Shown in pieces: positions 30,116 to 31,884 of a DNA stretch of 64,000 nt. Location: contig JAIQFH010000005.1 of the NCBI GenBank assembly GCA_020073385.1, positions 62,001-126,000 of the forward strand, written 5' to 3'. Position numbers and translations under genes: made by a program. The DNA comes from Terriglobia bacterium. GTDB lineage: Bacteria > Acidobacteriota > Terriglobia > Terriglobales > Acidobacteriaceae. The stretch's first letter is position 1; each line of letters begins with the position of its first letter. The notes under the pieces were generated by a model that made no database searches, was not told the DNA's origin, and saw nothing but the letters and a program-made list of their open reading frames with translations.

Positions 30116-31747
30116 TCAATTCCCCGGCATCCAACTCGAGAACTCCGGCCACTTGCTCATGGCGTCTTTCGCCCATGCTGTGTTCTTGTCTTTGTGGCAC
30201 GACGTGCACGGATTCGGAATCCCGTACTTGTCCGTCATCTCCGGAGAGATGAAGCGGAATGTGTGTGCGTGCACGAACGTCCCGGGCACGCCCTCGCTTT
30301 CAATCGCCGGCATATGACAGGCGACGCACTGGCTTCCGGGACTTCCATCCTTGTGGTGCGTATGAGTCTCGAGGGAAGCCGTGCGCGGGCCGTTCGGGCT
30401 CGAAGGGCCGTGACAATTTAGACAGATCTGCTCCGCGGGCTTTCGGAGTTGAGCGTAGTTCGCAGTCCCATGCACGTCGTGGCACGACGAGCATGTAATC
30501 CCGCGCCGGTACATCACGCTCTGCGCAAAGTCGTTTCCCTGCATGCGATTCTTGTGCGCCGTGCAATCGGGGAAGTAGTAGAACGTTGTCTGACCCAGCG
30601 TGCAGTCCTCCAGTTTCCAATAATCCGCTAGCTTCAGGCCGACGTTATAGCCGACCGGCCAGTCGTAGTATTTCCCCTCGATCGGACTCGATCGCGGCTG
30701 GCCCTGCGAGTGGCACTGAATGCAGGTATCGCTGGCAGCCACCGAATCCAAGAGACCCGGATTCACAATGTTGCTGCGCGATGGATGCGCCACGTGCTCG
30801 CTCCCCGGGCCGTGGCAGCGCTCGCAGCCGACGTTCCACTCCGCCACCTGCTTGGTATGAATGTCGTACCCGACGGAGTGACAGCCGTCGCATGTCGGCC
30901 CCGTGGGGCGATGCATGTTGTCCGAGGGATAGAAAGCGGTCCACCAGTCTCCGCCTTTTTCCGGCACGTGATAGGGGCGCCAGGCGTGATTGGCGAAATC
31001 CCACTGCACCGCCAAAGGGAAGTAGTCATCGCCAACCTTCGTGAAATAGCGCTGCTTCCACAGACTGCCGTAAACGAACGCCACCTGATCTTTCGTGAAT
31101 TTCGCCACATTGTTCGTGGCCAGGTCGGGCGTGATGGCTTCCGGATGTTCGCGCGGATCGCGCACTACGTTGGCCATCGGTGTCTTCTTCCAGCGTGCGT
31201 AGATTTCCTGATGGCACTTCTGGCAGGACTGCGAACCCGTGTAGTGCGCCGCAGCCATGATGGCGGACTGCTGTTGCCGCTCCTCGGGACTGAGCGCGCG
31301 GAGGCTTCTCACGAAGAGGACTAGCTTCCAGATGTCATCTTCCGATCCGGACTTGCTCCATGCCGGCATCCCTGTGAGCTGCACTCCGTTTTCGATGATG
31401 TAGTGAATCTCGCCGTCGGTGAGACGTTGTGTCGGCGACGATCGCAAATCCGGCACCCGCGGATAAAGATTCGACCCGATGGGCGTCTTCCCGCTTCCGT
31501 CGACGCCATGACAGGCAGCACAGTGAGAGAGGAACAAGTCTCTTCCCTCTTCCAGACTGGCGGCGACGGGATTCGTCTTGTAGCGTTCCTCTCCGGGGAT
31601 CGATAAGTTCCGCACTCCTCGCGCCACTTTGATCTCCCATGGCGCTACTGGGGCGTTTGCACGGAAGCCGTGGCGGAGCAGCAGATCGGCTCCGAAAGCC
31701 GCGAGCACGACGATCGTCAAAAACAGTAGAATCAGGCCTTTCCTCAT
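30116..31747 (-). CDS. Exported nine-haem cytochrome c
   Basis: A 543-residue protein with an N-terminal membrane anchor or signal (residues 4-24) and nine CxxCH haem sites. A mono-haem cytochrome c domain comes first (CAACH at 76-80, with the Met ligand probably in GMPAWSKSG). Then comes an eight-haem region: CQKCH, CDGCH, CERCH, CIQCH, CSSCH, CLNCH, CVACH and CTSCH. The second part resembles cytochrome c554/NrfB-like multihaem proteins that shuttle electrons in the periplasm. No reductase subunit is adjacent, so donor and acceptor are unknown. I start at the ATG at 31747; a GTG four codons upstream is possible. Confidence 0.87.
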   Translation of the reverse strand: MRKGLILLFLTIVVLAAFGADLLLRHGFRANAPVAPWEIKVARGVRNLSIPGEERYKTNPVAASLEEGRDLFLSHCAACHGVDGSGKTPIGSNLYPRVPDLRSSPTQRLTDGEIHYIIENGVQLTGMPAWSKSGSEDDIWKLVLFVRSLRALSPEERQQQSAIMAAAHYTGSQSCQKCHQEIYARWKKTPMANVVRDPREHPEAITPDLATNNVAKFTKDQVAFVYGSLWKQRYFTKVGDDYFPLAVQWDFANHAWRPYHVPEKGGDWWTAFYPSDNMHRPTGPTCDGCHSVGYDIHTKQVAEWNVGCERCHGPGSEHVAHPSRSNIVNPGLLDSVAASDTCIQCHSQGQPRSSPIEGKYYDWPVGYNVGLKLADYWKLEDCTLGQTTFYYFPDCTAHKNRMQGNDFAQSVMYRRGITCSSCHDVHGTANYAQLRKPAEQICLNCHGPSSPNGPRTASLETHTHHKDGSPGSQCVACHMPAIESEGVPGTFVHAHTFRFISPEMTDKYGIPNPCTSCHKDKNTAWAKDAMSKWPEFSSWMPGN

Positions 31748-31884
31748 GTGTCTGCCCACTGTCTGTGAAACTTGCCGTGTGTGTCAACCCCAGGTGCGGT
31801 CCCGGCGTGCGTCCAATTTGTGGTCGGACGCATCAATATCTGCGCGTGTATAGCGATATCTCTGCGGGGTGAAAGGGAGCGTCC

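Follow-up and report, generated by a model that had tools for sequence, protein, structure and literature searches.

Described relatives of the cytochrome reported here are OcwA of Thermincola potens, the octahaem sulfite reductase MccA and the tetrahaem cytochrome c554. According to the structural comparison in the OcwA paper, haems 1-4 of OcwA superimpose on c554, haems 5-9 on NrfA and haems 1-4 plus 6-9 on MccA, whose eight haems represent this OcwA set (PMC6703420). The same account names haems 2 and 5 as the open sites of OcwA, with haem 2 being also the active site of MccA, and mentions an extra beta-sheet domain common to both proteins, the reduction of nitrite by OcwA and both reduction and oxidation of hydroxylamine (PMC6703420). 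For MccA of W. succinogenes a long CX15CH haem motif is described (PMC7096707).

Searches of an open-access library yielded no description of a layout of mono-haem plus octahaem, which is not proof of its absence from the literature. The layout is encoded on the minus strand of the window, the 64,000-nucleotide stretch of DNA analyzed in this work, and consists of the following elements:

30116..31747, minus strand: coding sequence of the nonahaem cytochrome, 543 amino acids, with homologues sharing its layout
31676..31732, minus strand: hydrophobic segment near the N-terminus (residues 6-24) that is predicted to anchor the protein in the membrane (best 19-residue hydropathy 2.65)
31310..31558, minus strand: mono-haem domain, a class I cytochrome c spanning residues 64-146 (Pfam PF13442 and PF00034)
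31508..31522, minus strand: C76-H80, motif of haem 1 in the mono-haem domain, invariant in 19/19 aligned fused mono-haem domains
31367..31369, minus strand: M127, predicted distal ligand of the mono-haem by analogy with class I cytochromes, invariant like H80 in 19/19
30119..31246, minus strand: octahaem region, residues 168-543 (Pfam and PDB matches)

The open reading frame runs from an ATG at 31747, which is residue 1 in our numbering and has an in-frame GTG beside it at 31759, to a stop codon ending at 30116. The first-pass annotation had counted nine CxxCH motifs in one chain, and this number was confirmed in the 543-residue product; 2000 shuffles of its own residues contained 0.03 motifs on average and never more than one. 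The nonahaem cytochrome is a conserved gene and not a chance arrangement. From the N-terminus onward the chain contains the hydrophobic segment, the class I mono-haem domain and the eight-haem region. The annotation was also right about the combination of a class I mono-haem with eight further haems, as Pfam places Cytochrome_CBB3 (PF13442, E 2.5e-14) on the first haem and the multihaem families Cytochrom_c3_2, Cytochrome_C7, Paired_CXXCH and Cytochrome_C554 on the remaining ones. A generic doubled-CXXCH domain is the sole NCBIfam family above its cut-off, and a repeat search of the gene revealed nothing of note.

A search of solved structures with a profile built from 26 octahaem sequences returned OcwA (6i5b) as the best solved relative of the octahaem (E 6e-38); 6qvm (7e-19), 5ze8 (7e-6), MccA (4rkm, 5e-4) and c554 (1bvb, 1.5e-3) are further relatives, and the match to 6r2q (E 5e-13) covers paired-motif stretches only. 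The identification of 6i5b as OcwA is ours and draws on the HH380/381 pair of the paper, which could be matched to the chain. These sequence matches place the octahaem within the NrfA-type superfamily, in the branch of OcwA, MccA and cytochrome c554. Its haem motifs are located as follows:

31211..31225, minus strand: octahaem haem a, C175-H179, equivalent to OcwA haem 1 (36-row alignment, PDB alignment)
30878..30892, minus strand: octahaem haem b, C286-H290, CDGCHS, equivalent to OcwA haem 2 and candidate substrate site (alignments; PMC6703420 for the OcwA site)
30812..30826, minus strand: octahaem haem c, C308-H312 (36-row alignment)
30710..30724, minus strand: octahaem haem d, C342-H346 (36-row alignment)
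30479..30493, minus strand: octahaem haem e, C419-H423, equivalent to OcwA haem 6 (36-row alignment, PDB alignment)
30410..30424, minus strand: octahaem haem f, C442-H446 (36-row alignment)
30314..30328, minus strand: octahaem haem g, C474-H478 (36-row alignment)
30194..30208, minus strand: octahaem haem h, C514-H518 (36-row alignment)

Haems 1-4 and 6-9 of OcwA align with all eight octahaem motifs, and the alignment spans the haem 1-2 stretch, in which OcwA carries its extra beta-sheet domain. In contrast, OcwA haem 5 has no counterpart, with no CxxCH between haems d and e, and the C-terminal three-helix bundle of OcwA is missing, as the chain stops 25 residues past the last motif. The nonahaem protein further differs from OcwA by Met instead of His at residue 191, by the fused mono-haem and the anchor and by its acidobacterial origin. 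Similarity to MccA is weak overall and local at haem a, including an EHP segment; MccA has His at the place of M191, and its CX15CH motif is absent from 36/36 octahaem sequences, each of which has eight CxxCH. Cytochrome c554 (1bvb, 1ft5) matches best over the haem b-c region and presumably also has His at this place. As for NrfA, PF02335 is not among the Pfam matches at E<=10 and CxxCK occurs in 0/36 octahaem sequences.

The comparison with octahaem hydroxylamine or tetrathionate enzymes that had been proposed by the first-pass annotation led elsewhere, as the octahaem aligns instead to OcwA, MccA and c554. Membership in one family with HAO was rejected, since neither Pfam nor NCBIfam gave a match to an HAO family at E<=10. 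In octahaem tetrathionate reductase, a lysine is the distal ligand at the active haem. Taken by its sequence, the protein fails the defining features of OcwA, MccA, NrfA and HAO, yet it is clearly kin to OcwA, MccA and c554. Two repeat-tailed acidobacterial octahaems (L042, L044) have eight CxxCH in similar order; inspected by eye, they differ by His at the M191 place, by the lack of the HKNRMQ run described below and by a long C-terminal repeat-like part.

AlphaFold predictions reached a mean pLDDT of only 37 for the full-length protein (alignment of 10 sequences) and 38 for the octahaem alone (alignment of 11 sequences). The sole and weak rise, with block means of 59-75, is found at residues about 208-267, a block of beta strands which falls roughly where OcwA and MccA carry their extra beta-sheet domain.

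Conservation was evaluated in 36 octahaem sequences with pairwise identities of 49.6-99.7%. Duplicates (L046, L047, L049 and L050 of L017, L018, L020 and L019; L080, L094 and L095 of L028, L027 and L021) had been dropped before counting, as had L029, which is cut by a contig end, and L075, which is interrupted by two stop codons in frame; the set retains L054 despite the frameshift in its mono-haem, and L086 and L087 are nearly identical. Two further elements stand out:

31175..31177, minus strand: M191, Met in 36/36 and His in OcwA, 6qvm, MccA and 5ze8
30539..30556, minus strand: HKNRMQ, residues 398-403, candidate pocket over haem b, invariant in 36/36

CDGCHS and HKNRMQ are the two longest invariant runs, and haem b is the only haem with both X residues invariant. 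HKNRMQ would sit about where HH281/282 covers haem 2 in OcwA, a placement for which we relied on where the alignment ends and on a numbering offset that was itself inferred. The histidines outside the motifs that are invariant in the 36 sequences are H318, H398, H426, H462, H465 and H495, while H464 is His in 32/36. With these six and H464 for eight haems, at least one haem is left without an invariant distal His, and judging by this count and the OcwA alignment, haem b may be five-coordinate. At the place of M191 after haem 1, His is found in all four solved relatives aligned there (6i5b, 6qvm, 4rkm and 5ze8). As the equivalent His of c554 ligates haem 3, we predict that haem c of the octahaem is His/Met-ligated through M191.

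Conservation is strongest in part at the haem which OcwA and MccA use as active site, and this speaks for catalysis. We assume, with a probability of about 0.5, that the nonahaem cytochrome is a periplasm-facing oxidoreductase, tethered to the inner membrane and connected with the cytochrome c pool through its own mono-haem. Layout, sequence homology, conservation and distribution of the family are observations, and catalysis, topology, geometry of the pocket and direction of electron flow are deduced from them. The eight-haem core would be a trimmed OcwA/MccA-type module comprising OcwA haems 1-4 and 6-9, in which haem b (CDGCHS), covered by the invariant HKNRMQ, is the candidate site for the substrate, and this would most likely be a small N or S compound.

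The periplasmic multihaem relay envisaged by the first-pass annotation is a serious, though less probable, rival. In a pure relay, the nine haems would not catalyze any reaction but transfer or store electrons on their way between the membrane chain and a second protein of the periplasm. Such a role would be in line with c554, which is called an electron-transfer protein (PMC7096707), and with a chain that ends 25 residues past the last motif and lacks the helix bundle present in the enzymes. Furthermore, haem c has better conserved flanks than haem b (0.86 vs 0.74 over 16 flanking columns), and conservation can serve electron transfer too. However, an invariant polar HKNRMQ together with an invariant CDGCHS at a haem that is open in OcwA argues for more than a relay. 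The gene surroundings weigh on both sides: no partner gene was found in 31 loci, which suits a relay, but a relay would also need a recurrent partner gene for the octahaem to serve, and none occurs in these loci.

Returning to the tethered oxidoreductase, a hydrophobic segment with a hydropathy of 2.1 or more is present in 18/19 intact fused rows, with L017 as exception, where it is not in frame. This anchor segment suggests a location of the cytochrome at the inner membrane. The N-terminal part scores 53.8 bits with PF13442 against a cut-off of 27, which makes it a class I mono-haem. The "quinol-linked" cytochrome domain of the first-pass annotation found no support, as the mono-haem is class I and neither NapC nor NrfH families are among the Pfam matches of the nonahaem cytochrome at E<=10. 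The NCBIfam NrfH family matches only weakly (E 3.8, far under its cut-off), and the weak match to NrfH in the PDB (2j7a, E 0.002) is confined to a short paired-motif stretch of the octahaem. The mono-haem also matches 6f0k_E, which is titled as mono-haem subunit of a quinol:cytochrome c oxidoreductase, and therefore a link to such a complex is possible.

Standalone relatives of the mono-haem were fetched from 12 loci (43-49% identical). Three of them, L100 (G004), L103 (G013) and L108 (G044), have a multicopper oxidase gene, identified by Pfam, in the same gene row as the cytochrome; in the other nine, no multicopper oxidase was seen by eye. An outer-membrane efflux protein lies between oxidase and cytochrome, as found by Pfam in L100 and by eye in L103 and L108, and DUF5666 follows in L100 and L101. 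An RND efflux gene was also seen by eye in L100. The standalone cytochromes of L100, L103 and L108 have the same domain type and the N-terminal hydrophobic segment of the mono-haem part but, unlike the nonahaem protein, no fused octahaem. As anchored relatives stand alone in such multicopper oxidase/efflux rows, the mono-haem module looks like a general anchored carrier grafted onto the octahaem. In the proposed oxidoreductase it would replace a separate partner and give the enzyme an electron port of its own to the cytochrome c branch of respiration. The potentials of class I His/Met haems usually lie well above those of bis-His multihaem chains, and for this reason we slightly favor electrons leaving via the mono-haem, i.e. 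substrate oxidation; the reduction of a high-potential acceptor would be nearly as likely.

The copper setting of these relatives raises the question of a copper-related redox function, in which the mono-haem would stem from a copper-efflux setting and a pair of cysteines would bind copper near haem b in the manner of the haem-copper site of MccA, where two cysteines bind copper at haem 2. The residues concerned are:

30602..30604, minus strand: C382, together with C395 in 11/36 sequences
30563..30565, minus strand: C395, together with C382 in 11/36 sequences

The protein described here belongs to these 11, the cysteines are never found singly, and this strict pairing as well as the multicopper oxidase in 3/12 gene rows would fit a copper function. 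However, 25/36 sequences lack both residues, and the pair was gained or lost once on the octahaem tree, so the co-occurrence counts as one event. A disulfide is the simplest reading of the pair, and no copper gene was seen by eye beside the window gene. We consider a copper function of the protein very improbable. An MccA-like copper site throughout the family is unsupported, as there is no invariant non-motif cysteine and the pair occurs in the 11 sequences only; a copper site restricted to this subgroup is conceivable.

The absence of an adjacent catalytic partner, also stated by the first-pass annotation, holds for both flanks of the window gene: a MacB/FtsX permease is located 82 bases downstream on the same strand, and the other neighbor is a divergent gene which appears pirin-like by eye. 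No operon shared with a donor, transporter or substrate gene was found in 31 loci including the window. The neighborhood count, which listed clusters present in three or more loci and missed the focal genes of L077, L084 and L094, returned recurrent neighbors that reflect synteny among close kin, permease-type genes without a consistent pattern and, in three loci, the DUF2231 gene. In 297 genomes, of which part of each genome's first-look candidates was scored so that some presences may be missed, carriers of the octahaem were not enriched in NrfA (2/19 vs 78/297 overall, Fisher p 0.17), NirK (1/19 vs 9/297, p 0.45) or DmsE (6/19 vs 140/297, p 0.23). Thus, no pathway is indicated by the gene neighbors or by the genomes that also carry NrfA, NirK or DmsE.

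The DmsE counts also bear on the idea that the protein catalyzes the last step of extracellular electron transfer, a role which has been proposed for OcwA. This idea draws on OcwA being the closest solved relative and on one Granulicella contig with a fusion of a DmsE-type decahaem and a GSU2204-like region about 2.6 kb away. It conflicts with the N-terminal anchor, which suggests the inner membrane, with the frequency of DmsE in carriers given above and with the window genome, in which DmsE/MtrA had no match at E<=1e-30 among the 8/51 first-look candidates scored, and we consider it very unlikely. The fusion itself (L054:12073-15330, from a Granulicella MAG) is a 1086-residue protein whose DmsE-family decahaem scores 202 bits, over the cut-off, and whose GSU2204-family match is weak (43.9 bits, under the cut-off) in a region without Pfam match; a single-chain porin-cytochrome conduit is possible.

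Elsewhere, the window genome contains one match to NrfA, two of NirK type and an octahaem that resembles HAO. The NirK-type matches (G000:C128:25796 and G000:C87:98001) are 645-residue frames over the family cut-off. The HAO-like protein (L096, G000:C67:13545) is a separate eight-motif protein matching solved HAO-type proteins, namely 6h5l_A (E 2e-31), hydrazine dehydrogenase (1e-29) and HAO (1e-28).

A scan of genome contigs yielded ten loci, nine of them with an intact nine-motif frame: two from Candidatus Sulfotelmatobacter, five from other Acidobacteria MAGs, one from Terriglobus roseus DSM 18391 and one from a MAG titled Betaproteobacteria. The tenth, in the Granulicella MAG (L054), has a frameshift in the mono-haem part. 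Nine-motif fused relatives are 54-91% identical to the window protein, and 14/61 related genomes match at E<=1e-140. The octahaem is present at E<=1e-40 in 19/297 genomes of an even sample of Acidobacteriota, and a search of viral contigs found no relative.

Three architectures of the octahaem were observed: a fusion with the mono-haem, a secreted protein without it, and a likely lipoprotein whose gene has DUF2231 as neighbor. Fused rows account for 20/36, including L054 with its broken mono-haem. In the tree of the 36 rows, these 20 and the standalone L027 are on one side of a branch with a support of 89/89, which is not decisive, and the main fused group, which includes L027, has a support of 100/99.6. 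A clade of fused rows excluding L027 was rejected (p 0.00024), and therefore L027 has probably lost its mono-haem domain. The octahaem tree is compatible with one fusion event; the mono-haem tree does not distinguish between one and two fusions (p-AU 0.51).

Tentatively, and with somewhat less than even confidence, we suggest that these proteins form an undescribed acidobacterial family of periplasmic enzymes, with a His-to-Met octahaem and HKNRMQ over a five-coordinate CDGCHS haem, of which one lineage would have gained a class I cytochrome and become single-chain and self-wired. If catalytic, the family would represent a redox reaction of the periplasm that has not been characterised so far, in soil bacteria among which is the complete-genome strain Terriglobus roseus DSM 18391. 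As an example of a multihaem module without haem 5 and helix bundle of OcwA and with a grafted mono-haem, it bears on the evolution of multihaem enzymes and on how electron partners are acquired.

In the third architecture, found in 3/36 sequences (L085, L088 and L093), the octahaem with a lipobox recognized by eye lies directly before a DUF2231 membrane protein, which is perhaps an alternative membrane link or electron partner. The DUF2231 genes were identified by Pfam downstream of the lipoproteins at L085:8003-8503, L088:9333-9806 and L093:9649-10128. The window genome has three DUF2231 matches, all located on other contigs.
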